Below, one piece after another: positions 2,417 to 22,748 of a stretch of DNA of 26,009 bases. Origin of the DNA: a virus; the IMG/VR virus record IMGVR_UViG_3300037882_001739, positions 1 through 26,009 of that record. One strand, written 5' to 3'. The notes beneath the pieces were generated by a model, which worked only from the letters and a program-made list of their open reading frames with translations, had not been told where the DNA came from and searched no databases. The position numbers and the translations under genes are program-made. Each line of letters opens with the position of its first letter. Position 1 is the first letter of the stretch.

Positions 2417-2595
2417 TGACTGCTGCATTCCCAAACGGATATATTTTGTTCATGTTGGCTTTTGGTTTGTGGTTCATCGTTGACGTAATTATTGCCATCA
2501 AAACGGCAAGAACCATCCTCGACGAACACGAACGGGTAAAGAACAAGCCCCCCTTCATTGCCCCGGAAAATGACGAAGAAAGTTGCTCAGTATGA
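2416..2595 (+). CDS. Small membrane protein (59 aa)
   Basis: ATG 2416 overlaps the helicase stop as TGATG, which I prefer to an upstream in-frame TTG. One hydrophobic helix spans about residues 7-28 (YILFMLAFGLWFIVDVIIAI), followed by a charged cytoplasmic-type tail rich in Arg, Lys, Glu and Asp. No family is recognised. Its stop overlaps the primase start (ATGA at 2592-2595). A single-span protein within the replication operon might anchor replication proteins to the membrane, but nothing in the sequence proves this. Confidence 0.6.
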   Translation: MTAAFPNGYILFMLAFGLWFIVDVIIAIKTARTILDEHERVKNKPPFIAPENDEESCSV

Positions 2596-3491
2596 GAGGC
2601 GAAATGGATTTCATTGCGTTCTGTGAAAAGTACAGAATTGAGTATAGGACCAGCGGGAACCACACGCGAAGAGGTTGGGTGCAAATACACTGTCCCTATT
2701 GTGGCGGGGGCAACGACAGCTTTCATATGGGGTTCTGTCTGAGTTGGCCTCGCGTATCGTGCTGGAAGTGTGGCAAGCATCCACTTCTCCAAACACTGAA
2801 AATGGTGGCACGAGAGACAGACGCCAATCTGCATACCATCATCAACAAGTTCCCGCGAGAACGAGTTGTCGAGAAAGAGGAAGTCACAGGGGTTCTGAAT
2901 CTGCCAAAAGGACTTGCCCCTATGAAACGTTGCCACAGAGAATACCTTAGGGAGCGGCGTTTCAATCCCGACACCATTGAACGGGTGTGGGGTGTGAAAG
3001 GTCTTGGTCTTGACGGTCAATGCAAAACATCGAGAGGTATGGTCAATCTGGCATGGAGGCTTTTCATTCCAATAGAATCAAAAGGAGTTGTGTCGAGTTG
3101 GACAACGAGATCTATTGCGGACAACGCATCTATTCGGTATATCTCGGCGGGTAAAGAACACGAACGGATTAGTCATAAGGAATTGTTGTACGGTGAAGAC
3201 TATGCAGGAACCACAATCATCATTGTCGAAGGCCCAACCAAAGCATGGAGAATTGGACCGGGAACTGTCTGTACGTTTGGGACAAGGCCGACGCCCGCTC
3301 AAATTGTACGAATGGGAAGGTACGCTAAGAGATATGTTTTGTTTGACCACGGGGCAGAGCGTTACAGTCAATCTCTTGTCCAGCAACTGTCAGGGTTCGG
3401 CGGAGAAACCTACAGCATAGAGATTGACGCTGCCGATCCAGATGACATGTCCAAAAAAGAACTACGTCAAGTAAGGGGGTTGTTGCAATGA
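2592..3491 (+). CDS. DNA primase with N-terminal zinc finger and TOPRIM domain
   Basis: 299 residues. The N-terminus carries a CHC2-like zinc site: HCPYCGG (Cys34, Cys37) and CWKC (Cys57, Cys60), typical of primases that read template DNA. The C-terminal half contains a TOPRIM-like core: IIIVEGPTKAW with the catalytic Glu near 213, VLFDHGAE (249-256) in place of the usual D-x-D strand, and DPDD at 282-285. It lacks a fused helicase domain, and a DnaB-like helicase is encoded separately at 5887. I chose ATG 2592 over TTG 2583 because it overlaps the previous stop as ATGA. It should make RNA primers for lagging-strand synthesis. Confidence 0.85.
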   Translation: MRGEMDFIAFCEKYRIEYRTSGNHTRRGWVQIHCPYCGGGNDSFHMGFCLSWPRVSCWKCGKHPLLQTLKMVARETDANLHTIINKFPRERVVEKEEVTGVLNLPKGLAPMKRCHREYLRERRFNPDTIERVWGVKGLGLDGQCKTSRGMVNLAWRLFIPIESKGVVSSWTTRSIADNASIRYISAGKEHERISHKELLYGEDYAGTTIIIVEGPTKAWRIGPGTVCTFGTRPTPAQIVRMGRYAKRYVLFDHGAERYSQSLVQQLSGFGGETYSIEIDAADPDDMSKKELRQVRGLLQ

Positions 3492-4135
3492 CCATGAGTA
3501 CCAGAGACTTTGGTGGTTTGAACTACGGGGTAGTTGTTCCCCGCCAGATGAAAGAACGTGAATGTCTTCTGCACAACATGCGAAATGCGATTGCATCAAA
3601 CATGGACAGCGACAAGGAAGCATTCGAAAAAGCCGACATGCAAGTACTAGAACAAACATATGAACTGGTACTCTCCGGGGCTATCACTTATCAAGGAGAG
3701 GGGTTCTTTGCAGGTCATGGGTATTTGTTCCACATCGACGGAGACCCTTGTGTGTTGCTTCCGGGTGTATTTCCCTCGATACGCATTTCACATGCTGTCT
3801 CCAATCTGGGTCCGAACTTACAGCGAAGCTTGGCACGCATGAACGAAGCATTTGCTTCACTGGCAAGAAACTCGACACAACTGCCGAAAAAACGAAGGTG
3901 TTTGCCGAAGCGGCGGAACGCATGGAACCCACAGAAACCGAGCCAGTCTCGGCCTTCCAGTGGGTGTTCTGGTTCTAGGGGTGGTTGTCGTCCTGCTTTT
4001 GCTTACCCATGCCGCCATTTAAGGAGCCGGGGGCTTTATTCGGGGTTGCAAGGCGGACGCAAGACAGTACAATGGCCCAACACCAGCAAACCATTTTCAA
4101 TCGTAGGGGATCTCGCACATCCAAGACGATACTAA
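3488..4135 (+). CDS. Unknown protein, probably frame-shifted near its 3' end
   Basis: Starts with ATGA over the primase stop. About residues 1-135 look like normal protein (for example FFAGHGYLFHIDGDPCVLLPG) and then end at QLPKK. After the A6 run at 3887-3892 the same frame becomes Arg/Ser/Pro/Gly-rich, like an out-of-frame translation, up to TAA 4133-4135. One base back (-1), the sequence continues sensibly as TKVFAEAAERMEPTETEP and stops at 3976-3978. A further -1 frame (3960-4022) reads as a strongly hydrophobic helix, VLVLGVVVVLLLL. Either the ribosome slips at A6, or the gene is decayed, or the assembly has an indel. No family is recognised. Confidence 0.5.
   Translation: MTMSTRDFGGLNYGVVVPRQMKERECLLHNMRNAIASNMDSDKEAFEKADMQVLEQTYELVLSGAITYQGEGFFAGHGYLFHIDGDPCVLLPGVFPSIRISHAVSNLGPNLQRSLARMNEAFASLARNSTQLPKKRRCLPKRRNAWNPQKPSQSRPSSGCSGSRGGCRPAFAYPCRHLRSRGLYSGLQGGRKTVQWPNTSKPFSIVGDLAHPRRY
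3960..4022 (+). other. Orphan transmembrane-like reading frame
   Basis: In the third frame, GTG 3960 to TAA 4020-4022 encodes a 20-residue hydrophobic helix (VGVLVLGVVVVLLLLTHAAI). No ribosome binding site or ATG is in frame upstream. It lies directly behind the -1 frame end of the preceding gene, so it may be the C-terminal membrane anchor of that protein after a second frame change. It could also be chance. Confidence 0.25.
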
Positions 4136-4196
4136 TACAACACTGCGAAGTGTTAAAGAAGCCCCGGTGGGATGTGCGAGATCCTGCCGGGGTTTT
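4108..4196 (+). ncRNA. Structured RNA segment with nested, mutually exclusive hairpins
   Basis: GGATCTCGCACATCC (4108-4122) is perfectly complementary to GGATGTGCGAGATCC (4170-4184), giving 15 bp. Between them is a hairpin with a GNRA loop, AACACT-GCGA-AGTGTT (4139-4154). CCCCGG (4162-4167) pairs with CCGGGG (4187-4192) followed by TTTT (4193-4196), an intrinsic-terminator shape whose 19-nt loop contains the entire 3' arm of the 15-bp helix. The order is A, B, A', B', a pseudoknot topology. With only 2 nt on either side of A', both helices probably cannot form fully together. The element ends 4 nt before ATG 4200. It may be an attenuator, a switch or a small RNA. A 64-codon frame (4009-4203) also crosses it, so a coding explanation is not excluded. 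Confidence 0.6.
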
Positions 4197-4199
4197 CTT

Positions 4200-4574
4200 A
4201 TGACTGGAACGCACATGACAACGAAACAAAGCCAACAACTCGCTCTCGCAATGTGGAACATACTTCAAATCCTTTTGAAGAAACTGGAGAAAGACAAGTA
4301 CCCCCGACTGTCATCGCATACTGGAATACTCCCAGAACCCGTAGTGTATGGTTCGGTCCCATCAATGAAAGTCGAAGACATTAAGAGCGGGCAAAATGTG
4401 CTGATGTCAGTGGGCCTTATGTCTGTGGTAGACGTCATTCTCGACTCCGATCGAAACGTAGTTCTTTCCTACTTTGTGTCCTTCGAAAAAGAAGGACCGC
4501 CAATACAAAAGTGGTCGTATACACTACATCACAGCCTCAAAGGCGACTCTGGGTATTTGAAGAGAGTCGTGTGA
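4200..4574 (+). CDS. Hypothetical protein (124 aa)
   Basis: Begins at ATG 4200 directly after the terminator-like hairpin; ATG 4215 is an alternative, with GGA a short distance upstream. The N-terminus is helical (about residues 7-33), and the C-terminal part is beta-like with alternating hydrophobics (NVLMSVGLMSVVDVILD, NVVLSYFVSFEKEG). No family is recognised. The GGGG that could serve as its ribosome binding site lies in the 3' arm of the hairpin, so translation may be controlled by that RNA. Its TGA overlaps the next ATG as TGATG. Confidence 0.6.
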   Translation: MTGTHMTTKQSQQLALAMWNILQILLKKLEKDKYPRLSSHTGILPEPVVYGSVPSMKVEDIKSGQNVLMSVGLMSVVDVILDSDRNVVLSYFVSFEKEGPPIQKWSYTLHHSLKGDSGYLKRVV

Positions 4575-5890
4575 TGCCAGCAACACTGGAACAAGTGATA
4601 AACATACTCCCACGACTTCCGTCAGCAGTGATGTTGTATCGGATAATTGCAGAGTATGACGGCAAAAAGGGATTTCCTTGTGGACTGTCCGCTACGGAAA
4701 TGGGGTTCCTTTTGGGTGTTCGGATGAAACGCACGTCATACAGCGTTAAGTTAATTGAAAAAAACCTAAAAACACTTCGCAATGTGGGTTTAATTCAGAC
4801 GTGTATTTTGCAATGGAAAAGCAGGGACCTCCTGATCCCTACTGGACAGTTCGCAAAGGAACAAAAGACAATACACTTCGCAAGAGGTGGAGAAGTGGCA
4901 AATTTGCCGGTTATTCGCGTAAATCTGTCGATCTATTATGAAAAAAGAGACATACCTAAGGGAAGTAAATGGACCTTGATCCCTACTGAAAATGGGGAAT
5001 ATGTATTTATACTACATATAAATAATAACAAGAAGAGAATAAATTCTTTTCTGGGTGAGTTGAAAGAAGACGAAGTAAAAAGGATATCCAATATGATTGG
5101 GTTTCACGAAATCTTTTCAAAAAAAGAGAGCAACCCCATCTATGACGAAATGGCCCGTCGCTTTTACATAGTTGTCAGGAAGAAAGTAGTCGGCAAACGC
5201 ACTTCGCTAGCGAAGTGGTCTACCGAGTTGGAACGCATAGCGAACAGACATAAAGAACAATTCCCACTTGTGTTCGAGTGGCTTATGGAGAATATCCCAA
5301 AACAGGATTGGTTATGCCAAGCCGTCCAATCGCCATCGTCGATTGGAAAGAAGTGGGATAGGATAGTTGGCTGGATGGAACGAGACAAGCCAAAGAAGTC
5401 CAAGTACGAACTCCCAGAAGATTACGAAGACTACCGAGAAGCCATAGAGGGAGACATTGATCACTTCCGAAAGAAGTACGAAGACGTGATAGATATGGTA
5501 GTGTCCATTCACCCCAATCAAATGCAACGTGCCATCTATGACAGTTATCAGTTGATTAACAGGGTGATTGAGAGTTTGACCAACATCCCATACCCAAACC
5601 GTACAAAGATGTCAGAATGCGTTGGAAGTGTCCATCCCTATCTGGTGAGCGAGAAAACCTACAGGGTTCAGATGGGGATCAATCTGGAGCGACTTAGGGA
5701 ATGGTCGGAAACAGGATGGAAAGGTCACTTGTGTGGGAGGAACAACATAGCTCTCGTTCAGATAGATGATTGTGTGCAGGTGAGCAACCCAGCTAAAACC
5801 TACCTCACCAATCTGTTGAAGAAAACCACGGCAAGCCCTGCCATACGTGACAGGGTGTTTAACGACATAATAGGAGAAATTGAGACGTGA
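4574..5890 (+). CDS. Putative replication initiator or helicase loader, winged-helix N-terminus
   Basis: 438 residues from ATG 4574, which overlaps the previous TGA. Residues about 10-80 look like a winged helix (LSATEMGFLLGV as helix and turn, SVKLIEKNLKTLRNVGLIQ as recognition helix and wing), a fold used by phage and plasmid initiators. The remainder is long, charged and unrecognised. Its stop overlaps the helicase start as GTGA. It carries internal CACTTCGC repeats and an AT-rich block, as lambda O carries its origin. The initiator role is inferred from position, fold pattern and repeats; no signature motif proves it. The middle (about 4990-5060) has a base composition unlike its neighbours. 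Confidence 0.55.
   Translation: MPATLEQVINILPRLPSAVMLYRIIAEYDGKKGFPCGLSATEMGFLLGVRMKRTSYSVKLIEKNLKTLRNVGLIQTCILQWKSRDLLIPTGQFAKEQKTIHFARGGEVANLPVIRVNLSIYYEKRDIPKGSKWTLIPTENGEYVFILHINNNKKRINSFLGELKEDEVKRISNMIGFHEIFSKKESNPIYDEMARRFYIVVRKKVVGKRTSLAKWSTELERIANRHKEQFPLVFEWLMENIPKQDWLCQAVQSPSSIGKKWDRIVGWMERDKPKKSKYELPEDYEDYREAIEGDIDHFRKKYEDVIDMVVSIHPNQMQRAIYDSYQLINRVIESLTNIPYPNRTKMSECVGSVHPYLVSEKTYRVQMGINLERLREWSETGWKGHLCGRNNIALVQIDDCVQVSNPAKTYLTNLLKKTTASPAIRDRVFNDIIGEIET
5001..5050. other. AT-rich patch, candidate DNA unwinding element
   Basis: Only 8 of 50 bases are G or C, whereas flanking genes look close to balanced. It lies within the initiator-like gene between CACTTCGC copies at 4874 and 5200. 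It still encodes a plausible peptide (FILHINNNKKRINSFL), so it is coding as well. Confidence 0.4.
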
Positions 5891-7332
5891 AGATAAAGCG
5901 TAACAGGGATCAGGTTAGAGAACTGGTGGTCATCGGTGCCATCATGAATGACAATCAAATATGTCATGCCGTCTCCATGTGGCAAAGCCAGTATCAGGAA
6001 GACCTGTTCCTGTCCCAGAGTCATGAACGAATCGTATCGTGGGCTGTTGATCACTACCGGGAGAAGAAGGGGGCTCCGGGTGCCAAAATACTCTACACGA
6101 CTTGTTACGAACCGTGGGAGGAAGAATCCGGCGGAACAGAAAAATGCGAGCTTGTTTCTGGTTTGATGGAAAGGGCTCAGGAAGCCTACAAGGCTGCGAA
6201 GTTCCACAAAGACCAACTGTTCGACCTTACAGAAGATGTGCTGCGACGGCAGCAAGTGCTTATTGCGTCTGACAGGGTTGGTGGGAGTTCTTCGGCCAAG
6301 CTCATCTCAGACATTGTTCCGGGTGCTGTGGCTGTCAGTTTGGCGAGAGAGCCCGAATATGACAACTTCTTTGAGAACCCCGAAGTCGCACGCAATGCAG
6401 AAGCATCCATCTATCCGGTATTTAGTTTCAAAGATGATGTAGTAAATGCGTTCTTCGATGATACCTTTGCTCCCGCCACCTTCACTACCTTTGCCGCACC
6501 AGAAAAGAGAGGCAAGTCGCAGTGGCTTTTGGAATGCACCATTGCCGCTCTTACCAGCAAAAAGAAAGTGCTATACTTTGACGCCGGGGACATGACAGAA
6601 GATCAAATCTTTACCCGATATGCGGCACGAATGCTCAAGAGACCGTTCCGTGGGAGCGAAGATGTTCCGTCCTCCCAACTTGTATTCACCGACCTGTACA
6701 TGGACGGAGACTCTCTTCATGCGAACCATGATGAAATAGAACACACCGTAGGCATCACCCAAAAGCAGTTCAACAAGGTTAAGGCCAAATGTGCATCGAT
6801 GTTCAAGGGAAAGCTATTCACCCGCAACTTTCCCAGAGGCACATTGGCTGTTGATACAATGCGATCCATATTGGACAACCTCTCCATGAGAGGCATTGGG
6901 ATTGACGTTGTCATTGTGGACTATGCCGACATATTGCGTCCCTCCAAATCTAAGTACAGTGACAACCGCCATGCCATCACTGAGATATGGGGCGACATGC
7001 GAACGCTATCCATGTCTTACGGCATTGCTTTGATCACAGCCACCCAGACAGATGCCGCAACGTATGACAACGAGATTGGTCAAAGTAGCTTCACTGAATC
7101 CAAGACCAAGAACGCATTCATCTCGGCTGAGATCGGTATTGATCCGACAGAATTTGAAGGTGTGTTCAAGTTGAAGTATGTCTTCCGCCGATCGGGGTCT
7201 TTATCCAAGTTCATCTATGTTGCTTCCGACTTGGCAACCTACCGACCAGCAATGATGGCTGTATGGGGTCCAAAGGCCGGGAATGGGGGCAGGAAGATGT
7301 TGGGAAAGTTCCGAAAAAAAGATAAACCGTAA
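5887..7332 (+). CDS. DnaB-like replicative helicase
   Basis: 481 residues, starting at a GTG coupled to the preceding stop (GTGA). The N-terminal 150 residues are helical, as in DnaB N-domains. A RecA-type ATPase core follows: a variant Walker A, APEKRGKS (204-211), VLYFDAGDMTEDQI as the H1a-like strand and catalytic acidic region, Walker B DVVIVDYADIL, then IALITATQTD with the motif H3 Gln and a C-terminal basic segment. The P-loop lacks the usual G-x4-GKT spelling, having Ala and Arg where Gly is common, but GKS is kept. It should unwind DNA at the fork, partnering the separate primase at 2592. The family assignment is by motif order. Confidence 0.78.
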   Translation: MKIKRNRDQVRELVVIGAIMNDNQICHAVSMWQSQYQEDLFLSQSHERIVSWAVDHYREKKGAPGAKILYTTCYEPWEEESGGTEKCELVSGLMERAQEAYKAAKFHKDQLFDLTEDVLRRQQVLIASDRVGGSSSAKLISDIVPGAVAVSLAREPEYDNFFENPEVARNAEASIYPVFSFKDDVVNAFFDDTFAPATFTTFAAPEKRGKSQWLLECTIAALTSKKKVLYFDAGDMTEDQIFTRYAARMLKRPFRGSEDVPSSQLVFTDLYMDGDSLHANHDEIEHTVGITQKQFNKVKAKCASMFKGKLFTRNFPRGTLAVDTMRSILDNLSMRGIGIDVVIVDYADILRPSKSKYSDNRHAITEIWGDMRTLSMSYGIALITATQTDAATYDNEIGQSSFTESKTKNAFISAEIGIDPTEFEGVFKLKYVFRRSGSLSKFIYVASDLATYRPAMMAVWGPKAGNGGRKMLGKFRKKDKP

Positions 7333-8230: not shown

Positions 8231-9121
8231 ATGAAACCATTTCGACCTCTTCTTGCTGCTGACGCAACCATTGATGACGTAGTGCTTCCTTGCGTCGCAA
8301 GTCCAAAGCTGGACGGTATACGATGCTTGTGTCTTGGCGGAGATGTCCTTACCCGCTCGATGAAACTACTCCCAAACAAACACGTTCGCGAAACAATTCA
8401 AGCCCATCCCGAACTATTCGATGTTGATGGGGAGTTGATGACTGGCACCACGTTCCAGCACTGTCAGTCTGCTTTCCTGTCACATGGCGGAAAGCCCGAC
8501 TTCACTTACCACGTGTTTGACGTACCGACCAGGGAAGACGGTCCTGAGTTTTCGTTCCGTGCCCGTCATACAGATTTGAAGAGCCGAAGACTGCCCGACT
8601 TCTGCGTCAGAGTCCAGCAGAAACTCATCTACACTGTAGAAGAACTTCACGCCTACTACGCACTTATGCTGTCTCGTGGGTATGAAGGTTTGATTCTCAG
8701 AAGCCCACATGGAAAGTACAAACTCGGTCGCAGTACCATCAGAGAGCAAATCATGCTCAAGCTCAAACCAATGGGAGACAGCGAGGCAATCATCATTGGT
8801 TTCGAGGAACAGCTTCACAATACCAATGAAGCCACTATCAACGAACTCGGTCGCAGCAAGAGAAGCAGCAAGAAAGAAGGAATGGTTGGTGCTTCTACGT
8901 TGGGTAAGTTCCTAGTCAAAGGCGTAGGGCATCCCTTCGAAGGACAGGAGTTCTCGATTGGGACTGGGAGAGGTTTAGACCAATCACTGCGACAACAAGT
9001 CTGGAACAACCAACAAGCCTACATCGGCAAGTTGATTAAGTTCAAGTATCAGGAGATGGGGAGTTTGAACAAACCCCGCATCCCTATTTTTCTAGGTTTC
9101 CGTTCACCACTAGACATGTGA
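8231..9121 (+). CDS. ATP-dependent DNA ligase
   Basis: 296 residues, a compact phage-type ligase. Motif I is SPKLDGIR, with Lys26 as the AMP-accepting residue; motif III is FDVDGELM; then YHVFDVP, motif IV YEGLILRSP and motif V IMLKLKP. The C-terminal part, from about 200 on, forms the OB-type domain (FLVKGVG, EFSIGTGRG, IKFKYQE). It seals nicks between Okazaki fragments, fitting its place among replication genes. A strong terminator lies directly upstream, so expression may depend on read-through. The next gene starts 7 nt after the stop. Confidence 0.92.
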   Translation: MKPFRPLLAADATIDDVVLPCVASPKLDGIRCLCLGGDVLTRSMKLLPNKHVRETIQAHPELFDVDGELMTGTTFQHCQSAFLSHGGKPDFTYHVFDVPTREDGPEFSFRARHTDLKSRRLPDFCVRVQQKLIYTVEELHAYYALMLSRGYEGLILRSPHGKYKLGRSTIREQIMLKLKPMGDSEAIIIGFEEQLHNTNEATINELGRSKRSSKKEGMVGASTLGKFLVKGVGHPFEGQEFSIGTGRGLDQSLRQQVWNNQQAYIGKLIKFKYQEMGSLNKPRIPIFLGFRSPLDM

Positions 9122-9128
9122 GGACACT

Positions 9129-9356
9129 ATGGCGAAAGCCAAGTCAGAAAAGAGAGACAAGCCGAAGAAGACCAAGAAAGTCAAAGTTACCCAGATTGCT
9201 CTGCTGTCGGACATGATGGGCGGGCTTCGGGCACTGCGGGGAGTTGTGGCAGAACTCAAGACAGAAGTCGGGTACTTGCGAGCCGTACTGCTGGACAAGC
9301 CAATCCCATCCGCCGAACCAAATCCCCCAGAAGATGCAGAACGAGAAGCGGAGTAA
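9129..9356 (+). CDS. Small protein with basic N-terminus and helical core (75 aa)
   Basis: Starts 7 nt after the ligase stop; GAGGAC just upstream may bind the ribosome. Residues 1-20 are nearly all Lys, Arg, Ala and Ser; residues 22-52 form a leucine-rich amphipathic helix (LRALRGVVAELKTEVGYLR) that could be a coiled coil; the tail is Pro/Glu-rich. No family is recognised. The layout suggests a DNA- or RNA-binding oligomer, which is only an impression. Confidence 0.6.
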   Translation: MAKAKSEKRDKPKKTKKVKVTQIALLSDMMGGLRALRGVVAELKTEVGYLRAVLLDKPIPSAEPNPPEDAEREAE

Positions 9357-9382
9357 TCACTCAACACGTTTCCGCTTCTCGT

Positions 9383-9415
9383 GAAAGGGAACAGGGAATC
9401 CCTGTTCCCTTTTCC
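9383..9415 (+). terminator. Intrinsic terminator
   Basis: AAAGGGAACAGGGA pairs over 14 bp with TCCCTGTTCCCTTT around a minimal loop, followed by T and TCC. A second hairpin (TTTCCTTGC and GCAAGGAAA, about 9411-9438) overlaps its U-tract. It closes the ligase operon. Confidence 0.85.
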
Positions 9416-9451
9416 TTGCCAATCAGCTTGCAAGGAAAAAGTTTTGTGGTA

Positions 9452-9481
9452 AATTGCCATCTCGACGACTATGTTTTGTAG
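9452..9481 (+). repeat. Intergenic motif, copy 2
   Basis: Second copy of the element at 7331-7359, sharing AATTGCCA, CGACGACT and GTTTTGTAG-like blocks with small gaps. The palindrome GGCCAATTGGCC (9481-9492) follows immediately, and the next gene starts 48 nt downstream. The position after a terminator fits a promoter or operator. Confidence 0.4.
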
Positions 9482-9528
9482 GCCAATTGGCCGTAACCGT
9501 TTTTACACCAGACTAAGGAACAAGAACT

Positions 9529-10107
9529 ATGAAAGTCGCCCGTCCAGCCCTTGTGGCTCTTCTCAACAAGCACGATATTGGGACTTCCAAGAAGAACAAG
9601 CCGTTCAGCAACGAACGCCTCATGGAACTCCTCAAAGAAAACATCGACACGATGACCGAGGGGGATGATGTTGATCCTCTTGCCGCCTCTCTGGCTGCCG
9701 CCATCGAAGAAGACGCGAAAATCAAGATCACGGGCGACGATCCGACCGTTGCGAAGCAGGCAGAAGCCCCAGCGAAGGGCAAGGGCAAGGCCGAGAAGGA
9801 AGAAACTTCCGGCAAGAAAAAGAAGAAGGACAGCGAAGCCAAGCCCGAGAAGAAGAAAGAGAAGAAAGAGTCCGCCGAACGCGACAAGTGGAACTCCAGT
9901 CCTGAGTCGTCTGCCGGACGGATCAACGCTGTCTTCTTTGCAAACAAGAAGCCGCTCACGATGGATCAGATTGTCGAAGCACTGGCCGACGAAGACATCA
10001 GCCGTTCCCGTGTACGCGACCACTTGCGACGTCTTGTCACCGACGGCATTCTGGCCAAGGACGACAAGGACCGCTTCGTAGTTCCGAAGAAAGCCAAAGA
10101 CGAGTAA
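9529..10107 (+). CDS. Lysine-rich linker protein with C-terminal winged helix
   Basis: 192 residues in three parts. Residues 1-60 are helical (ARPALVALLNKHDIG, NERLMELLKENIDTM). Residues about 80-125 are a low-complexity, strongly charged linker of Lys, Glu, Ala and Asp (KGKGKAEKEE, GKKKKKDSEA). Residues 128-192 resemble a winged-helix DNA-binding domain (LTMDQIVEALADEDISRSRV, HLRRLVTDGILAKDD). It has its own spacer and is followed by a strong terminator, so it may be expressed separately and at a high level. A histone-like or transcription-related role is possible; no family is recognised. Its charge blocks recall the proteins at 21545 and 22791. Confidence 0.7.
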   Translation: MKVARPALVALLNKHDIGTSKKNKPFSNERLMELLKENIDTMTEGDDVDPLAASLAAAIEEDAKIKITGDDPTVAKQAEAPAKGKGKAEKEETSGKKKKKDSEAKPEKKKEKKESAERDKWNSSPESSAGRINAVFFANKKPLTMDQIVEALADEDISRSRVRDHLRRLVTDGILAKDDKDRFVVPKKAKDE

Positions 10108-10192: not shown

Positions 10193-10783
10193 ATGCAGAT
10201 CGAGAAACTCTATCACTTCCATGCGGCACACCGCAATGAGTTGCTACAGGACAAGTGCTTCAACGTTCATGGACACACCTATCATTTGAAGGCAGTGTTT
10301 GATGTTGTACGGGACCAAACCGACCCCAACATATCAGTCCTGTTCTCCAACTTCGATACAATCGAACAAATGTTGAAGGCCGACTGGGATCATGCTCTGT
10401 TAATGAATGTGGAAGATCCACTTCTCGCTTACTTGATGGCATTCACGCGAGACACTCAGCAAGCACTAAAAATTGTAGTTCTCCCCCGTGCAACATCCGT
10501 CGAGAATGTGTGCTACACGTTGTTCGGCATCATTACAAAGATGGGGTTCGGGCTTATCCGGCTGGAACTGAAAGAGACCACCACTTCAACCGTGTCCTAC
10601 ACCAAAGAGGATTGGGAGCGGGACACCGTGTTGTTTGATGAAGGTGTGAAGTGGTGCGAGTGTGTGTTTGTTGACAACGAACAACGATGTAGTGTTTGTG
10701 ACAGAACCAAATGGGAATTCAAACTAGCAAAGAGGAGACGAGGGCATGAACAATCAACCGAGAGAACCGCTAACGAACAGTGA
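10193..10783 (+). CDS. queD: QueD-like 6-carboxy-tetrahydropterin synthase
   Basis: 196 residues. The T-fold zinc ligands are visible as His13 (FHAAH) and His26/His28 (VHGHTYH), with the nucleophilic Cys22 four residues ahead of HGH, as in QueD. ATSVENVCYTLF matches the P-T-x-E-N substrate-binding stretch, and LELKETTTS carries the pterin-binding Glu. Family members turn dihydroneopterin triphosphate into 6-carboxy-tetrahydropterin, the second step to preQ0. The C-terminus is extended by about 50 residues and has four cysteines (CEC, RCSVCD), a possible extra metal site. It overlaps the next gene by 38 nt, in an operon with queE and folE. Confidence 0.85.
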   Translation: MQIEKLYHFHAAHRNELLQDKCFNVHGHTYHLKAVFDVVRDQTDPNISVLFSNFDTIEQMLKADWDHALLMNVEDPLLAYLMAFTRDTQQALKIVVLPRATSVENVCYTLFGIITKMGFGLIRLELKETTTSTVSYTKEDWERDTVLFDEGVKWCECVFVDNEQRCSVCDRTKWEFKLAKRRRGHEQSTERTANEQ

Positions 10784-11450
10784 TCCGAACGTACTGGACG
10801 TTCATTCCATCTTCCACACCATTCAGGGAGAAGGACCATTCACAGGACACCCAGCGGTGTTTGTTCGCTTGGCTGGATGCAACCTGCAATGTGCCAACTG
10901 CGACACCAACTACACAACGGGGCGTCGCATGATGACAATCGACGAAATTGTACAGCCCATTTTCGAAAGCGAGTCAAGACTTGTTGTGATCAGTGGCGGA
11001 GAGCCCTTCCGACAGAACTTCTCAGGACTTGTTGAAGTTCTCCAAAAACAAGGGTATACCGTTCAAATTGAATCAAACGGAACGATCTGCCCCGATTGGG
11101 TTGGTTACTTTGCAGATGACCACCACCCCAACAGAAATTTACATTTTGTGATCTGTCCGAAGACAGCCCAAATTCATCGTGGGTGGTTGCAAGTTGATCC
11201 GAGCATCGTGTCATATAAGTATGTCATGAATGCAGAACATGTCTCTGATGCCGATGGACTTCCCCTGTCCGTACTTGGCCAAAACGTACGACCATTCCGT
11301 CCAGCGAAAAGTGACCGCATTTATCTTCAACCAGAAGACAACCTCGACACTGCGATCAACGGACTCAACGTTGACGCCTGTATTGCGTCATGTCTGAAGT
11401 TCAATTACATTTTGTGTCTGCAAGTTCACAAAATCGTGCAGCTTCCGTAA
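10746..11450 (+). CDS. queE: QueE-like 7-carboxy-7-deazaguanine synthase (radical SAM)
   Basis: 234 residues. The N-terminus has the QueE signature HTIQGEGPFTG followed by the iron-sulfur motif C-x3-C-x2-C (Cys45, Cys49, Cys52 in GCNLQCANCD), consistent with the shortened cluster loop of QueE. VISGGEP is the SAM-binding GGEP motif, and QIESNGT follows. The enzyme rearranges carboxy-tetrahydropterin to 7-carboxy-7-deazaguanine. The ATG at 10746 lies inside the 3' end of the queD-like gene, with GGAGACGAGG just upstream. Confidence 0.9.
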   Translation: MNNQPREPLTNSDPNVLDVHSIFHTIQGEGPFTGHPAVFVRLAGCNLQCANCDTNYTTGRRMMTIDEIVQPIFESESRLVVISGGEPFRQNFSGLVEVLQKQGYTVQIESNGTICPDWVGYFADDHHPNRNLHFVICPKTAQIHRGWLQVDPSIVSYKYVMNAEHVSDADGLPLSVLGQNVRPFRPAKSDRIYLQPEDNLDTAINGLNVDACIASCLKFNYILCLQVHKIVQLP

Positions 11451-12259
11451 AAGCCCTGTCGCAGCGACAATTACCCACAACCTTAAAACCACTACCCCCG
11501 GAACCGAAACAACGGAGCCGGGCAACCAGAAAGCCCCATATGTGCACGGAAGACACTTCCGAAGATATACCAGAAGCCCGAGATCCCTTTATCCGTGATG
11601 GTATCCCCGAAGATGCAACGCCAGAAGAACAGGCTCGCATATTGATGGGCTTCACTGAGACAGATCCGCGGACTTCACCAAAGTGGACCATCGTCGAACA
11701 GGCCGAGGAACAGGGACTCGACCGAGCTATCCGTCACATGATTACTTTGGTCGGCGACGACCCTGAACGAGAAGGGTTGCTGGACACACCAGACCGAGTT
11801 ATTCGTTCATGGCGAGAGTTATACGCCGGATACGACACAGACGTCGGCTTGTTGTTTACGCAGTTCGATTCCGAAGAATACTCAGAGATGATTATTCTTG
11901 AAGGCATCGAATTTCAATCCATGTGCGAACACCACATGTTGCCTTTCTACGGGCAAGCATGGGTCGCCTACATTCCCAATGAGAAAGTTGTGGGTATCAG
12001 TAAACTGGTTCGAGTCGTAGAGGCGTTCTCGAAGCGACTCCAGAATCAAGAACGCATTACGTCACAAGTCACGGAAGCGTTGGAAACATATTTGAAGCCG
12101 TTGGGTGCGGCGTGTGTGCTAAAGGGACACCACATGTGTATGGGGTGTCGGGGTGTGCGTCAGCCTTCTACGGTAATGACCACATCTTCTTTAACAGGTG
12201 CGTTCAAGGCGGACGCACAAACACGGAACGAATTTCTCTCCTTCGTTAACAAAGGGTAG
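11390..12259 (+). CDS. folE: GTP cyclohydrolase I (FolE type)
   Basis: The core of about residues 100-289 matches FolE: SMCEHHMLPFYGQAWVAYIP with zinc ligands Cys179 and His182, GISKLVRVVEAFSKRLQNQE, and HHMCMGCRGV with Cys250. The enzyme opens GTP to dihydroneopterin triphosphate, the first step of the 7-deazaguanine path, feeding the queD-like enzyme. The N-terminal 100 residues are an unrecognised Pro/Arg/Glu-rich extension. The start is uncertain: ATG 11390 overlaps the queE-like gene by 61 nt and lacks a good binding site; ATG 11540 (239 aa) and ATG 11645 (204 aa) are alternatives. The stop is 2 nt from the next ATG. Confidence 0.9.
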   Translation: MSEVQLHFVSASSQNRAASVKALSQRQLPTTLKPLPPEPKQRSRATRKPHMCTEDTSEDIPEARDPFIRDGIPEDATPEEQARILMGFTETDPRTSPKWTIVEQAEEQGLDRAIRHMITLVGDDPEREGLLDTPDRVIRSWRELYAGYDTDVGLLFTQFDSEEYSEMIILEGIEFQSMCEHHMLPFYGQAWVAYIPNEKVVGISKLVRVVEAFSKRLQNQERITSQVTEALETYLKPLGAACVLKGHHMCMGCRGVRQPSTVMTTSSLTGAFKADAQTRNEFLSFVNKG

Positions 12260-12261
12260 TC

Positions 12262-13185
12262 ATGCCGAAGTCAACATCTGTTGTAATGCGGTTTCAGTTT
12301 GAAGGGTGGCACAAGTGGGGAGCCGCCCCTCACGAACATCGTTACTTGCGATACCCCCACCGTCACATGTTCCAAGTGGAAGCCCGCAAGGAAGTGGATC
12401 ACGAAGAACGCCAAATCGAGATCATTGCCTTCAAACGAGAAATGGAAACGTGGGCGAGTCGCGAGTACGGAATTGGATCAGTCACTGACGAAGACGATTG
12501 CACCGACTTCAATACTTGCTCCGATGACAGTTGCGAAACCATCGCAAGGAAGTTGTGCGAACGGTTTGGTCTGTGGGCTGCAACCGTTATGGAAGACGGA
12601 GAGAACGGGGCAGAGTGCCTGGACTATGATGACATGTCCTCTCTGGCTATCGATGACGTCGTCCCTTCCAAAGCGACAAACCGACGATTCCCCGCCACAA
12701 TCTTCAAAGGAACAGAAGCCGAAGGCCCGCACCGGGGGATTGAGACCATCTTCGTTCCGGGGGATACCCCACAGGAAGAAGTGTTGGAGATGCTCGACGC
12801 TATTTCGGGAAAAGACCCGTATCAGCTTCGCAACATTTACTTTGGTGCGGACAACCGACCGTGCGAAAACCTTCAATCCGTGATTGCTGTGATTGAGAAA
12901 GCAAGAGTACGCTTCCTATCACGGTTTAACTTTATCTGGGTTGAATTGCGTCGATGGAAGGAGGAGTACTACATCCCATGTCCATTGGAAGGTCTTATGT
13001 TCTGTGTCGTATGTCCGAAGACAGAAGAAGACCGGACAGTCATCCCTGATGGACCCCATGTGTTCTTCAAAGAGGTGACGGCGACCAACATCGTCTGGAC
13101 TTTGGCAAACGACGACTGCGGCGAAAGCTGGGCTACCCCTACCAATGACCCGTTGTTCGAACAAGACGCTAAACTCCACTACTAA
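12262..13185 (+). CDS. Divergent QueD-like protein with unknown C-terminal domain
   Basis: 307 residues. The first 130 resemble a 6-pyruvoyl-tetrahydropterin synthase fold: His17 (FEGWHKW) and His33/His35 (YPHRHMF) occupy the zinc-ligand positions, SCETIARKLCERF corresponds to the S-E-x-L-A helix, and VMEDGENGAE to the pterin-binding Glu. HGH has become HRH, and no Cys precedes it, so the usual nucleophile is missing and the chemistry must differ. Residues about 150-307 form a second domain, unrecognised, that contains GIETIFVPGDTPQEEVLEML and CPLEGLMFCVVCPK. It lies between folE and a glycosyltransferase gene and may carry out a later step on the deazaguanine. Confidence 0.6.
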   Translation: MPKSTSVVMRFQFEGWHKWGAAPHEHRYLRYPHRHMFQVEARKEVDHEERQIEIIAFKREMETWASREYGIGSVTDEDDCTDFNTCSDDSCETIARKLCERFGLWAATVMEDGENGAECLDYDDMSSLAIDDVVPSKATNRRFPATIFKGTEAEGPHRGIETIFVPGDTPQEEVLEMLDAISGKDPYQLRNIYFGADNRPCENLQSVIAVIEKARVRFLSRFNFIWVELRRWKEEYYIPCPLEGLMFCVVCPKTEEDRTVIPDGPHVFFKEVTATNIVWTLANDDCGESWATPTNDPLFEQDAKLHY

Positions 13186-13196
13186 GGAAATCGGCT

Positions 13197-14366
13197 GTGA
13201 ACAACCTTACCCCGACAGGACGACGTCTCTTCTACGTCCCTTTGGAACCACTACAGGGTCGCTATACAGAACAGCTCTCAAGAGCCAACACCGGCTGGAA
13301 TGAGCGGAACTGGAAAGCAGCACAGATCCCGTACGTTCGCATAGAGGGGCCAAACCCAACAGTGGAAGCGTCTCTTGCCGGGGGAAAGGTTATCAACACG
13401 GTACGACGTTGTGAGTGGGCGTTTGCTCAGACGTCAAAACTTGTACAGATGATTGCTGACGGAACTATAACGTCCTCTGACGCGATTTACTTCGACGACT
13501 TCTGGCACCCCGGTCTTGAAATGATCGGGCAGGCCATTGCTGAGGCACAGTGCCCCCCGTCTTTGTATAGTTTTTGTCACGCTCAATCTGTGGACATGTT
13601 TGACTTCATGTGGGACAGAAGACGATGGGCTTCTCACATCGAACATGGGTTTGCCCGCCTGTACGACAGAGTGTTTGTGAACAACGACACTCTGGCTGAA
13701 TTATTGCATGTGAGATACGACAACGCATATGTCGTCAACTGCGGTCATCCTTTTTCCACAGAAGAAGTGGTATCCACTGTCCCACTGAACTACCTCATCC
13801 CCAATTCAAAAAGCAACACGGTTGTGTTCAGTTCGAGGTTTGACCGCGAAAAGCAACCCCACCTATTCATGGACATCGTAGAAGCCACACTCAAAAAGAG
13901 CAGCAACATCAAATTTGTTGTGTGCAGCGGCGGACCCCTGCGGAGCGATGACGACTCCGCAGTGTCACGAGCAATTGAGATGGGCCTTCAGGGGAAACTG
14001 ACACTTGCGACCAACCTGACAAAAGCGGCGTATTACAAATGGTTGAAGCACGCAAAACTTCAACTGTCCACCAGTCTTCAGGATTGGGTGAGCTATTCCT
14101 TACTTGAAGCCCTCTCGTTCGGTTGTTATCCTGTCTATCCAAACTACCGATCATTTCCAGAAGTGTTTGGTCCCTATGCCAATCATCTGTATCCTTTCCA
14201 CCCCACTATGGACAGAGGGTATATTGTCAATGACGTGTCAAACCGAATCATCAATCTGTGCAAACACGAAACAATACAGATGAAGGACGCCATCGCTGAT
14301 TACGTTTTGGGGCACCACAACATGACGTGGGCTCGGATGGCAGTTGAAATGGATCTTCTAGTATGA
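13197..14366 (+). CDS. GT-B fold glycosyltransferase
   Basis: 389 residues from GTG 13197, preceded by AAGGAAA. The C-terminal half shows a GT4/GT1-like nucleotide-sugar-binding domain: VVFSSRFDREKQPHLFMD (about 209-226), IKFVVCSGGP, then SYSLLEALSFG and YRSFPEVFG, with the two glutamates (304 and 322) in the E-x-n-E arrangement typical of GT4 enzymes. The N-terminal half (HPGLEMI, YSFCHAQSVD) would bind the acceptor. It sits between the second QueD-like gene and the DpdA-like gene and overlaps the latter (ATGA). That points to glycosylation of a deazaguanine nucleotide or of phage DNA, which is an inference. Confidence 0.75.
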   Translation: MNNLTPTGRRLFYVPLEPLQGRYTEQLSRANTGWNERNWKAAQIPYVRIEGPNPTVEASLAGGKVINTVRRCEWAFAQTSKLVQMIADGTITSSDAIYFDDFWHPGLEMIGQAIAEAQCPPSLYSFCHAQSVDMFDFMWDRRRWASHIEHGFARLYDRVFVNNDTLAELLHVRYDNAYVVNCGHPFSTEEVVSTVPLNYLIPNSKSNTVVFSSRFDREKQPHLFMDIVEATLKKSSNIKFVVCSGGPLRSDDDSAVSRAIEMGLQGKLTLATNLTKAAYYKWLKHAKLQLSTSLQDWVSYSLLEALSFGCYPVYPNYRSFPEVFGPYANHLYPFHPTMDRGYIVNDVSNRIINLCKHETIQMKDAIADYVLGHHNMTWARMAVEMDLLV

Positions 14367-15388
14367 CAGCTACTCCAATATACCCAACGAAGACCCGCGA
14401 GACAAAGACGGAACGGGCAGAAGAACGTATCAACGAGTTCTTCCTAGACTCCGGGGCTCACTCTCTGTACAACAAGTACGTTGGGCATCATGGTTCCATT
14501 GGAGAAGAAATCAAAGCCCACATGGACGCAATGACTCCGATGGAACGGTTTGCCATCAGACGTCAAATGCCCACGACCTTCAAAAAGAAGCGTACAACAT
14601 CCTATGAGTTCTATGACACGCAAGAGTTCTGGGACTACGTTGACACCTACTGCCAGTTCATCATCGACTACAAACACGCAATCGACTACTATGCGACTGT
14701 TGACGTGTTGTTCCACCCAAAGAAGAGCTGGCGTGTTTTGAAGTATATGGAAAAGGAATGGGGACTCAACCCGGTTCCTGTTATCCACTTCAATACGGAC
14801 ATTAGGTGGGTAGAGAAGCACCTCGATGCTGGGTATGACTACATCGGTATCGGGGGGCTCGGACAGGAGATTACGAAACAGAACTACTTCGCGTGGGCTG
14901 ACCCTGTCTTCAAGATGCTCTGTGACTCCAACGGAATGCCACTAGTCAAAACCCACGGGTTTGCAATGACAGCACACGAGTTGCTTGTTCGCTATCCGTG
15001 GTATAGTGTTGACTCCGCATCGTGGGCAAAGGCTGGTGCGTTCGGTCGTCTTTATATCCCGCGACAAACGAAGGGGCACTACAACTTCCTTGCATCTCCC
15101 TACACTCTAAATGTTAGTTGCGAATCTCCAACCAAGCACAAAAAGGGACGCAACTTTTCCACCATGAGTAACGAAGAGCAGCGGGTGGTTCGCAACTGGC
15201 TGGAGTTGATCGACGTCCCTCTTGGCAAGAATGACAGAGAGGGCAAGAGAGTTGAGAAGGGGGTTATCAACTATCACGGAAGTCGCAAGATTGCAAACCT
15301 CAAGTTCTACGAAGCAATGATTGCCAGTTTGCCCGATTGGCCTTGGCCGTTCAAAGAGGGGGTAAAGAAAGTGCGAGGTTTCCATTAA
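14363..15388 (+). CDS. dpdA: DpdA/TGT-like transglycosylase for 7-deazaguanine insertion
   Basis: 341 residues. The pattern matches phage DpdA and queuine tRNA-ribosyltransferase relatives: FFLDSGAHS (Asp29), YYATVDVLFHPK, PVPVIHFNTDIRWV, the glycine-rich GYDYIGIGGLGQ, KTHGFAMTAHELLVRYPW and YSVDSASWAKAGAFGRLYIP (Asp217). Two conserved Asp residues (29 and 217) are candidate catalytic residues of the barrel. The C-terminal zinc cluster of bacterial TGT is not seen, as in phage forms. DpdA exchanges guanine for preQ0-type bases in DNA. ATG 14363 overlaps the glycosyltransferase stop. Confidence 0.8.
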   Translation: MTATPIYPTKTRETKTERAEERINEFFLDSGAHSLYNKYVGHHGSIGEEIKAHMDAMTPMERFAIRRQMPTTFKKKRTTSYEFYDTQEFWDYVDTYCQFIIDYKHAIDYYATVDVLFHPKKSWRVLKYMEKEWGLNPVPVIHFNTDIRWVEKHLDAGYDYIGIGGLGQEITKQNYFAWADPVFKMLCDSNGMPLVKTHGFAMTAHELLVRYPWYSVDSASWAKAGAFGRLYIPRQTKGHYNFLASPYTLNVSCESPTKHKKGRNFSTMSNEEQRVVRNWLELIDVPLGKNDREGKRVEKGVINYHGSRKIANLKFYEAMIASLPDWPWPFKEGVKKVRGFH

Positions 15389-16624: not shown

Positions 16625-17863
16625 ATGTCTGGTTTCTTCCCGGAAGGGGTGTTCAAAACATCCCGTGAGTTCTCGAACACAAGCCGATGCGGTGCTTGTG
16701 GTCTGTACAAGAAGTGTGCCAACCCTAAACTCTCCCCGCAAGGGGACGGACACAAGAAAATACTGATCGTACTTCCACCCATCACGGAAAGGGAAGACGC
16801 CACAGGAAGATTCTTGCGGTCATCTATGGGGGAAACGGTCAAGACGGTTTTGAAGCAGAATGGCATAAGTCCGATGGACGACTGCCATTTTACTTCTGCC
16901 ATCATCTGCGGAACCGAAGCACCGACCAACGAGCAAATCGATCACTGCTCTTTCAAGCTGAAGAGTACTATCGAAGACCTCCAGCCAAACGTGGTCATAC
17001 CAATTGGTCCAGCAGCAATTCGTTCCATCATCCAGTTCACATGGAAAAAGTCTGCCGGTCTGTATGAACGATGGTGTGGGTATCAAATACCAGCACAAAC
17101 CATCAACTCGTGGGTGTGTCCGACTTACGTTCCATATGGTGATGATACCAACCTCACACCGTTCTTCATGGAACGCCACATCAGCGACGCACTTGAACTG
17201 TGTGACGCCCCGCCGTGGCAAACAATCCCCAACTACCAAGACCGCATTGAACTGATATGGTCGGAACGCAAACTTGAGAAGGTTTTGTCGCGGTGGATAA
17301 ACAAGCCCTTCGTCGCTGGTTTCGATTATGAAACGGTCTGCCTGAAACCGGACAAATCCAACGCACGGATTGTTAGCGGCTCCTTATCTTTCAACGGTCG
17401 GGAAACTTACGCCTTTCCGTGGTTTAGCAATGCGCCGGGCCTGCTGAAAGCCCTTTCCCGAAACCCTCGGGGGGCTTTCATTGGTTCGAACATGAAATAC
17501 GAAGAACGGTGGTCAAAAGCCGTCCTAGGGTTCACGATTCGTAATTGGGTGTGGGATACCATGCTCGCTGCTCATGCGATCGACAACCGGGGTGGTGCAG
17601 ACGATGAGACAAGGTCTAATGGTGGCGGGGGTTTGAGCAGTGTGAAGTTTCAGGCTTTCGTCTTGCTGGGACAGCCAATATATGACGACCACTTGAAAGA
17701 ATACTTGAAGGGCAACGGAAGCTACGGATTGAATTCGATCAAAGAAATCCCAATGAAGGATTTGCTCCTCTACAACGGAATGGACAGCCTTCTCTGCTAC
17801 CTTGTGGCAAAGGAACAAATGCGTCGAATGGGACATCCTCTTTTGAAAAGACTGAAAGTATGA
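16625..17863 (+). CDS. Uracil-DNA-glycosylase-like domain fused to 3'-5' exonuclease
   Basis: 412 residues. Residues about 20-190 resemble a family 4-type UDG: Cys22, Cys25 and Cys31 (RCGACGLYKKC), then EREDATGRFLRSSMGE in place of the G-E-x-P-G loop region, and NVVIPIGPAAIRSI. From about 225 a DnaQ-like exonuclease follows: AGFDYETVC with the D-x-E pair, IGSNMKYEERW, WDTMLAAHAID, and YNGMD with the Y-x3-D catalytic pattern. In SPO1-type phages these domains are fused to a family A polymerase; here the polymerase is separate, at 18020. It would give proofreading and perhaps recognition of uracil or a modified base. AGAGAG precedes ATG 16625. Confidence 0.78.
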   Translation: MSGFFPEGVFKTSREFSNTSRCGACGLYKKCANPKLSPQGDGHKKILIVLPPITEREDATGRFLRSSMGETVKTVLKQNGISPMDDCHFTSAIICGTEAPTNEQIDHCSFKLKSTIEDLQPNVVIPIGPAAIRSIIQFTWKKSAGLYERWCGYQIPAQTINSWVCPTYVPYGDDTNLTPFFMERHISDALELCDAPPWQTIPNYQDRIELIWSERKLEKVLSRWINKPFVAGFDYETVCLKPDKSNARIVSGSLSFNGRETYAFPWFSNAPGLLKALSRNPRGAFIGSNMKYEERWSKAVLGFTIRNWVWDTMLAAHAIDNRGGADDETRSNGGGGLSSVKFQAFVLLGQPIYDDHLKEYLKGNGSYGLNSIKEIPMKDLLLYNGMDSLLCYLVAKEQMRRMGHPLLKRLKV

Positions 17864-18027
17864 TCGATCCATCACTAGATCAAATGGCCGCTCAACTTCG
17901 AGAAGTGTTCCCCGCCATGTGGTGGGCTTTGTACAGTGGCATGTTAGAAAAAGGATTCACAGCAGAACAATCTCTCGATCTGCTGAAAACATACATCTCA
18001 ACTGCGTACAGGCCCAAACATGAGTAA
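17860..18027 (+). CDS. Small acidic helical protein (55 aa)
   Basis: ATG 17860 overlaps the exonuclease stop (ATGA), and the frame ends at TAA 18025-18027, 8 nt inside the polymerase gene. It is shorter than 60 codons and easily missed. The pattern AMWWALYSGMLEKGFTAEQSLDLLKTYI is like small phage proteins with W-A-L-Y-x-G-x2-E-x-G-F-T-x-E-Q-A that accompany replication genes; function unknown. Coupling on both sides supports a real gene. Confidence 0.7.
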   Translation: MIDPSLDQMAAQLREVFPAMWWALYSGMLEKGFTAEQSLDLLKTYISTAYRPKHE

Positions 18028-19402
18028 GTGTAGTTCACCCGAAGCCTACCAACTTCTCCATGACGGTTCTCTTGCCCTTGCACAAGTAGAGCATAACGGC
18101 ATACGAATTGACGTAGACTACTTGAAACGCACGCGAATCGCCATTCAGCAAGACTGCAAGGAAAAAGAAGCATGGATGCGACAGCACCCCTATTGGAAAA
18201 TATGGCGAAAGCGTTTCGGCCAAAAGGCAGCACTCAGCAGCAGTGACCAGCTCGCCCACGTCTTGTTCAAGGAACTCAACTACGAAGTCACCGGCTTAAC
18301 CAAAAAGGGGAAAGCCAGCACAGACAGAACAGCCCTTGAGAAAATTGACGACCCTTTCGTTCGTGCTTACACCGAGTGGGCGGAACTGATGAAAGCCGAT
18401 GGGACGTTTCTGTCGGGCATTGAACGAGAGACCATTGACTCCATCCTACACCCCATCTTTAACCTTCACATTGTAAAGACGTTTCGCAGTAGTTCCGAGG
18501 CACCCAACTTCCAGAACTTGCCAGTTCGTAATGGGAAGATAAGTAAACTCGTGCGATCTTGTTTCATCCCTCGACCGGGACGTCGTTTGGTGGAAATCGA
18601 CTACGGTGGTATTGAAGTCAAGGTGGCGGCTTGTTACCACCAAGACCCCACAATGCTGACCTACATTCACGACCCCACAAAAGACATGCATCGTGACATG
18701 GCGGCCGAGATTTACAAATGCGATCCGTCCAACGTAAACAAGATGTTGCGATATGTGGCGAAGAACCGCTACGTCTTCCCAGAGTTCTACGGATCATACT
18801 GGGCGAGAGTTGCTCCCGATCTGTGGGGTGCAATTGAGTTGTTCAAAATGACCATCGACAAGGGGGACAAACAAATTCCCGTTGCAAAGTGGTTGGCCAA
18901 GAGGGGTATTGAGGAACTTGGCGATGAGCACGACTCCAACTCGTTCATGTACCACATCAAGAAAGTAGAAGCCAACTTCTGGGGCAAGCGATTCCCTGTT
19001 TATGACGAGTGGCGTAAGAAATGGTACAAAGAATATTTGAGAACTGGTGGATACCGCACACTGACTGGATTCTACATTGAAGGCATCTACAAAAAGAACG
19101 ACGTTATCAACCACCCTGTACAGGGAAGTGCTTTCCATTGTCTGCTGTGGTCCCTGATTGAAATACAGAAGGAACTGAAACAGCGGAGAATGAAGACAAA
19201 GGTTGTTGGTCAGATTCATGACAGTATTGTTGGTGACGTAGTTGAGAAAGAGTACGATAGGTACTTACGCATCTGCAAAGAGATCATGACGGAACGGATT
19301 CGAGAAGAGTGGGACTGGTTGATTGTCCCGCTCGAAATTGAAGCGGAAGCGGGCGAAGTTGATCAATCTTGGTTCGAGAAAAAGAAAGTAGAGTTGAACT
19401 AA
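18020..19402 (+). CDS. Family A DNA polymerase, polymerase domain only
   Basis: 460 residues. Motif A is VEIDYGGIEVKVAA (191-204, Asp194; DYGG replaces the usual DYSQ), motif B is RYVAKNRYVFPEFYGS (244-259) and motif C is QIHDSIVGD (398-406, Asp401). SSEAPNFQNLP (159-169) and NHPVQGSAFH (364-373) are also typical. No exonuclease domain is present in this protein; it lies in the gene at 16625. About 190 residues precede motif A, corresponding to the thumb and early palm. The main replicative polymerase of this phage is therefore likely a two-chain enzyme. ATG 18020 overlaps the previous gene's end; the stop overlaps the next ATG. Confidence 0.92.
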   Translation: MSKCSSPEAYQLLHDGSLALAQVEHNGIRIDVDYLKRTRIAIQQDCKEKEAWMRQHPYWKIWRKRFGQKAALSSSDQLAHVLFKELNYEVTGLTKKGKASTDRTALEKIDDPFVRAYTEWAELMKADGTFLSGIERETIDSILHPIFNLHIVKTFRSSSEAPNFQNLPVRNGKISKLVRSCFIPRPGRRLVEIDYGGIEVKVAACYHQDPTMLTYIHDPTKDMHRDMAAEIYKCDPSNVNKMLRYVAKNRYVFPEFYGSYWARVAPDLWGAIELFKMTIDKGDKQIPVAKWLAKRGIEELGDEHDSNSFMYHIKKVEANFWGKRFPVYDEWRKKWYKEYLRTGGYRTLTGFYIEGIYKKNDVINHPVQGSAFHCLLWSLIEIQKELKQRRMKTKVVGQIHDSIVGDVVEKEYDRYLRICKEIMTERIREEWDWLIVPLEIEAEAGEVDQSWFEKKKVELN

Positions 19403-22618: not shown

Positions 22619-22634
22619 GGCGAAAGCCCTTTCC
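22617..22634 (+). terminator. Short terminator after the SSB gene
   Basis: AGGGC-GAAA-GCCCT, a 5-bp stem with a GNRA-type loop starting in the stop codon, followed by TTCC. The U-tract is poor, so termination may be partial. Confidence 0.5.
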
Positions 22635-22637
22635 TAT

Positions 22638-22748
22638 ACTCAAGTAAGCGGTTCAGACGGGTAACCGGATGGATGGCTGGGAAGGCTGCATAAAAGCCTA
22701 TTGCGAGCATCATAGTGCGAGTACCACAAAAGCCCTTGAGTCCTTTTT
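22638..22748 (+). other. Gene-free spacer with possible branched RNA
   Basis: ACTCAAG (22638-22644) is complementary to CTTGAGT (22735-22741), which is followed by TTTTT at 22744-22748. Inside are two small hairpins (CGGTT 22649-22653 with AACCG 22663-22667; AGGCT 22683-22687 with AGCCT 22695-22699). The shape, a closing stem plus U-tract, recalls 7433-7530 but is weaker. No gene is seen between 22619 and 22790. Confidence 0.35.

Follow-up and report, generated by a model that had tools for sequence, protein, structure and literature searches.

In phage lambda and the Stx phages P27 and 933W, the origin of replication lies in the middle of the initiator gene, where inverted-repeat iterons stand beside an AT-rich tract (PMC7466680). 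A related arrangement is found in Bacillus phage SPP1, whose oriL lies within gene 38 and combines repeats with an AT-rich unwinding element, a DnaB-family helicase being encoded nearby (gp38, gp39, gp40; PMC6316719). The DNA analysed here, called the window throughout, is the whole of a 26009-base virus fragment from IMG/VR (IMGVR_UViG_3300037882_001739). A first-pass annotation of its sequence had proposed a lambda-O-like origin around 4139-5217, formed by repeated octamers and an AT-rich patch in an initiator-like gene. The comparison with relatives and with known systems given below makes it quite probable that an origin of replication, or one of the origins, lies inside this gene at 4574-5890.

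The replication block and its initiator gene

The candidate gene belongs to a replication block with the following components:

2595-3491, plus strand: DNA primase, which opens the conserved replication block (phrog_47, 1.4e-25)
4215-4574, plus strand: ORF of 119 aa between a leader (4108-4199, described below) and the initiator gene
4574-5890, plus strand: replication initiator or helicase-loader-like gene, 438 aa (relatives' profile, hhalign and structure model)
5887-7332, plus strand: DnaB-like replicative helicase (phrog_19, 1.2e-31; Pfam DnaB_C, 1.9e-6)

The end of the initiator gene at 5890 overlaps the start of the helicase gene at 5887, and the 119-aa ORF has no PHROG or Pfam match. 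The stretch after the primase (3488-4021) has an apparent frame shift near 3850-3960 toward a hydrophobic tail ending at 4021, and seems to be either a frameshift or two overlapping genes.

Direct searches with the product of 4574-5890 found nothing in PHROGs or Pfam, in viral contigs (IMG/VR, single-sequence search), or in phages by tblastn, and nothing in 35 PolA-linked records, where an empty result carries no weight. Since the initiator itself gave no direct match, relatives were sought through its neighbour genes. PolA (18020-19402) retrieved 43 viral contigs, 20 of which were fetched around the helicase, with primase orthologues present in 18 of these first 20 loci; a primase alignment search contributed 80 further loci, and the two routes together yielded counterpart genes from 62 distinct relatives. 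As single queries in viral contigs, the helicase and the SF2 helicase found no relatives, and a primase scan of bacterial and archaeal genomes returned two distant matches that offered no host clue. The counterpart gene typically lies between the primase and the DnaB-like helicase (in a few relatives it is farther from the helicase), and most relatives share the order SF2 helicase, primase, winged-helix gene, DnaB-like helicase, so that the position of the gene beside the replicative helicase is common to the window and most of the group.

When the products of 30 relatives were scanned, 21 matched phrog_270 (replication initiation protein), 17 matched phrog_678 (replication initiation O-like) and 17 matched phrog_2514 (DnaD-like helicase loader), with best PHROG matches down to E 4e-24; the O-like families phrog_391 and phrog_9773 were matched as well by relatives whose gene occupies this position. 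For the window protein, there was no direct match to any of these O-like and DnaD-like PHROGs. It is matched by the relatives' profile (E 8e-10 for one target), and hhalign of the window protein against that profile gave 95.6% and E 1.3e-8 over aa 183-286. Its apparent membership of the O-like / DnaD-like family is therefore indirect, passing through the relatives' profile and then through the relatives' PHROGs.

Three parts can be distinguished in the protein: a predicted winged helix (about aa 3-100), a linker (about 100-185), and a conserved helical domain (about 186-275). In the AlphaFold model, pLDDT is about 46-73 for the winged helix (aa 3-101) and mostly >90 for the helical domain. Foldseek alone found no match with E <0.001 for the initiator model; the winged-helix call rests on a second-look alignment, in which the modelled part aligned with domains of the Fur, ArsR, and MecI type (Z up to 11.2, rmsd 2.5, 79 residues), and on predicted secondary structure, making an N-terminal winged-helix fold likely. 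Synteny, profile match, and fold together provide good support for 4574-5890 as an O/DnaD-type initiator, and bear out the first-pass description of an initiator-like gene upstream of a DnaB-like helicase.

Several other features of the record were observed. The stretch 10193-15388 encodes QueD, QueE, GTP cyclohydrolase I, and a queuine tRNA-ribosyltransferase-like protein, interrupted by a glycosyltransferase-like gene, and resembles a cluster for 7-deazaguanine DNA modification. The ORF at 16625-17863 begins with a UDG-superfamily domain and comes just before the PolA-family ORF at 18020-19402, the two ORFs being separate here. The single ORF at 24166-25395 contains an HNH-like stretch (aa 32-104, phrog_374) followed by a 5'-3' exonuclease (Pfam 5_3_exonuc_N), possibly as a fusion or because the start codon was called too early.

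An octamer cluster around an AT-rich patch

The sequence features in and upstream of the initiator gene are as follows:

4108-4199, plus strand: leader RNA structure as a whole, an inverted repeat around a GCGA-tetraloop hairpin, AACACT-GCGA-AGTGTT
4108-4122 and 4170-4184, plus strand: 15-bp perfect inverted repeat GGATCTCGCACATCC / GGATGTGCGAGATCC in the leader (RNA fold)
4139-4154: imperfect dyad AACACT-GCGA-AGTGTT with one CACTTCGC copy (minus strand)
4161-4199: terminator-like stem CCCCGG...CCGGGG-TTTT with T run, overlapping the 15-bp inverted repeat
4145-4152 (minus), 4773-4780 (plus, within AACACTTCGCAATGTG), 4874-4881 (plus), 5200-5207 (plus), 5210-5217 (minus): exact copies of the octamer CACTTCGC, from an exact count over the window
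4846-4897: densest motif group, with ACAGTTCGCAA (4846), ACACTTCGCAA (4873), and inverted GAGAAGTG (4890-4897)
4998-5050: AT-rich candidate unwinding element, the least stable DNA of the window (stability scan)
5200-5217: perfect 18-bp palindrome CACTTCGCTAGCGAAGTG, two inverted octamers (exact count and palindrome check)

Most of what the first-pass annotation had reported for this region was reproduced. Five exact copies of CACTTCGC fall within 1.1 kb, and no exact copy lies outside 4145-5217 in the 26-kb window; 0.87 copies per window are expected from shuffles, in agreement with the earlier estimate of about 0.8, and none of 100 shuffles reached five. The perfect palindrome and the 50 bp with 8 G/C at 5001-5050, which is the lowest 50-bp content of the window, were likewise found as described. 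Of the dyads, the one at 5200-5217 is perfect and the one at 4139-4154 imperfect. One statement needs correction. The octamers had been placed in or next to the gene; four are inside 4574-5890, but the copy at 4145 lies outside, before the ORF at 4215-4574, within a strong RNA hairpin. A degenerate motif count, which the annotation had suggested as a check, found the exact octamer clustered but its one-mismatch copies (42 against 22.9 expected) dispersed across the whole window. The clustering is limited to the exact octamer.

A near copy, CAGTTCGC, is located at 4847-4854, its extended form ACAGTTCGCAA agreeing with ACACTTCGCAA at 10 of 11 positions, and a further near copy lies inverted at 4890-4897. 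The in-gene copies are read in different frames (KTLRN, IHFAR, and KRTSL), which rules out a protein repeat as their source. Over the 1.1 kb the copies are unequal in spacing and orientation, and their dyads differ in geometry. CACTTCGC is the sole strong repeated word of the initiator locus, where no other tandem repeat or repeated palindrome was found.

As the octamer had been chosen after looking, its significance was corrected by leaving the 8-mer free in simulations. In Markov simulations of the window, from which the Asp-rich repeats were left out, some 8-mer occurred at least five times in 1.1 kb in 3, 1, and 2 of 200 runs (orders 1, 2, and 3, respectively), meaning that such a cluster arises in ~1% of simulated windows. 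(The Asp-rich repeats are long Asp runs in two ORFs at 22300-23180, coded by GATGAC repeats.) A test with the locus fixed, in which the initiator protein was kept and codons were shuffled (n=2000), gave at least five occurrences of any 8-mer in the gene plus upstream region in 2/2000 shuffles (p ~0.001), at least four within the gene alone in 55/2000, and a palindrome with arms of at least 8 in 4%. The two octamers of the palindrome at 5200-5217 are not independent of each other. The octamer signal is genuine though of moderate strength, draws much of its support from location, and is the weakest link of the origin mechanism proposed below.

The AT-rich patch stands out more strongly. At 50 bp, the stability z of 4998-5050 relative to the window mean is -5.7, against -3.7 for the runner-up, and at the 200-bp scale it is 5.6 SD below the mean, against 2.7 for the runner-up; the gene at 4574-5890 contains four of the five 50-bp spots with the lowest GC in the window. 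GC skew shows no turning point near 4-5 kb. The patch sits in the predicted linker of the initiator gene, with the motif group at 4846-4897 ~100 bp before it (5') and the palindrome at 5200-5217 ~150 bp after it, so that the window, like lambda-type origins, has a putative AT-rich unwinding tract beside its candidate sites.

Upstream, the leader RNA folds with a z of -3.8, and none of 200 shuffles was equally stable. Its two folds, the 15-bp inverted repeat and the terminator-like stem, overlap and are therefore presumably mutually exclusive, and the leader, which has no match in Rfam, looks like an attenuator upstream of the initiator operon. Since octamer copy 4145 is part of the GCGA hairpin within the 15-bp stem, and that stem overlaps the terminator-like one, this copy could be a piece of an RNA attenuator for the operon; it may instead be an outlying initiator site.

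Iteron arrays in the relatives

Arrays were scanned for as ungapped tandem repeats measured against Markov simulations (score >11.5, period 17-28, p up to 0.02). The initiator genes of 31/62 relatives contain such tandem arrays, compared to 2/61 primase and 0/58 helicase genes. Among the 31, the period is 22-24 bp in 25 and the array centre falls at codons 101-178 in 29; the motif group of the window (codons 91-108) is at the low edge of this range. The units are mostly palindromic (mean perfect arm 5.8, against 3.5 in shuffles), examples being CCGAGAAAACTCGG in three copies (L078), GTAGGCGAAAACGCCTAC (L079), CCGAAATATATTTCGG in three copies (L085), and TTAGCAAAAATGCTAA in three copies (L101). 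In 23/30 cases (4.9 expected), the array is closely followed on its 3' side by the 40 bp of lowest GC in the gene. In 11/29 array-bearing relatives (3.3 expected) and 7/30 array-less ones (3.1 expected), the initiator gene contains the 100 bp of lowest stability in the fetched locus; in the array-less group this stretch is not concentrated in the linker. Judged from sequence, the array-bearing relatives thus have the layout of lambda, palindromic iterons and an AT-rich tract inside the same gene, and they also match the lambda ori in gene O in its placement between the DNA-binding and helicase-recruiting parts (PMC7466680).

In close pairs of relatives, the sequence of the array follows the winged helix, the pattern that reading of the array by the winged helix would produce. 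L162 and L136 are alike in both winged helix and array; L162 and L150 are alike only in the C-terminal half, and their arrays differ; L110 and L133 have the C-terminal part in common and different arrays, the N-terminal difference being partial. Taken as an observation in its own right, these five relatives suggest modular exchange of the DNA-binding part together with its target iterons. Two more relatives, L130 and L167, carry arrays just upstream of the called gene; they were relabelled on the tree only and stand outside the 31. In L130, eight copies of AGCTTGTC, most of them spaced by 21 bp, occupy 8511-8700, just ahead of the initiator gene as called (8900-9733). Candidate origins can be found through initiator-gene repeats, from sequence alone, in about half of these viruses, and in this group dozens of naturally occurring combinations of a winged helix with its target repeat are available for following how initiators and origins change together.

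The window is different in this respect. Its initiator gene has no tandem array (p 0.38; p 0.19 when restricted to the usual codons and periods; none by TRF), and elsewhere in the window there is none besides the Asp-codon repeats at 22.3-23.1 kb. A hidden degenerate array in the gene is likewise not supported, given the restricted p of 0.19. By the same test arrays are missing in half of the relatives as well; a search of these array-less relatives for dispersed words gave mostly nonsignificant results and established no dispersed subclass. The octamer cluster is common to none of the 62 relatives and the exact 18-bp palindrome occurs nowhere in IMG/VR outside this record. In a tree of primase and helicase, the window sits on a long branch next to lineages that bear arrays (support 0.91), a position that weakly suggests loss or replacement of an array, the branches being long.

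The proposed origin and its comparison with known systems

The best explanation, which we favour on balance, is an O/DnaD-type initiator gene with an octamer-bound origin inside it. It builds on the family and position of the gene, on the clustered motif and the low-stability patch, and on how origins are laid out in the relatives. In the mechanism that these features suggest, the winged helix would bind CACTTCGC, chiefly at the group 4846-4897 and the palindrome 5200-5217 that flank the patch; the bound complex would melt 4998-5050; and the helical C-terminal part would pass the adjacently encoded DnaB-like helicase onto the melted strand, followed by the phage primase and PolA, with replication starting here. 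That CACTTCGC is the binding word of the initiator is somewhat favoured by the evidence, with less assurance than the placement of an origin in this gene.

An alternative with a low but appreciable probability also puts the origin in the gene, opening at the AT patch, and takes CACTTCGC not to be the binding word: the initiator sites would be degenerate palindromes of the linker and the cluster would be chance. The frequency of free-octamer clusters in simulations is compatible with this, as are the putative sites of the relatives, palindromes of varied sequence, and the other dyads in and near the patch of the window itself (e.g., 5004-5024), but it leaves aside that the octamer is the only strongly repeated word of the locus, with no repeated palindrome or tandem repeat in its place. 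A coincidental cluster, with the origin elsewhere and the AT patch a low-complexity linker, is improbable. With a record that is a 26-kb fragment, the origin might lie outside it; the post hoc significance of the cluster is modest, and arrays are absent from the window and half of the relatives. Against this, the patch is unique, at 5.7 SD below the mean, and lies in the very gene where relatives carry origin-type arrays. Least probable is that the octamers are operators of a transcription regulator, possibly the initiator autoregulating its own operon, with no origin involved, for although the operon is preceded by copy 4145 and the attenuator-like leader and the winged helix resembles the Fur, ArsR, and MecI repressors in fold, four of five copies fall within the coding sequence, as far as 640 bp beyond its start, where relatives have origin-type arrays and the AT tract is placed as in lambda.

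The analysis narrows the likely origin in a group of phages that has no known cultured representatives to a few hundred bases, and the group includes one lineage in which the usual array seems replaced. We regard it as a tentative and rather doubtful possibility that this lineage, among uncultivated phages whose clade has iteron origins of the lambda type, replaced its tandem array by dispersed octamers over 1.1 kb around a strong unwinding element. If true, one initiator family would have two origin layouts, array and dispersed, the latter closer to a DnaA-box arrangement.

The lambda-O-like origin of the first-pass annotation survives in its O/DnaD-type gene, its low-stability patch, and the iterons of its relatives, but not in a tandem array, and the octamers are dispersed and unshared. 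Tandem inverted-repeat iterons in the initiator gene, present in 31/62 relatives, were tested for and not found in the window, so its candidate origin is not filed as lambda-type, though it would work like one. Lambda has four 19-bp iterons side by side, whereas the window has scattered octamers. Lambda borrows the host DnaB through P; by contrast, the window carries its own DnaB-like helicase and primase genes next to the initiator gene, and no separate loader gene is seen between them. SPP1 oriL resembles the window candidate in having the origin in the initiator gene, repeats with an AT-rich unwinding element, and a DnaB-family helicase of its own nearby (a comparison of layout, not of protein sequence), and differs in its direct repeats and in the presence of a second origin, oriR.
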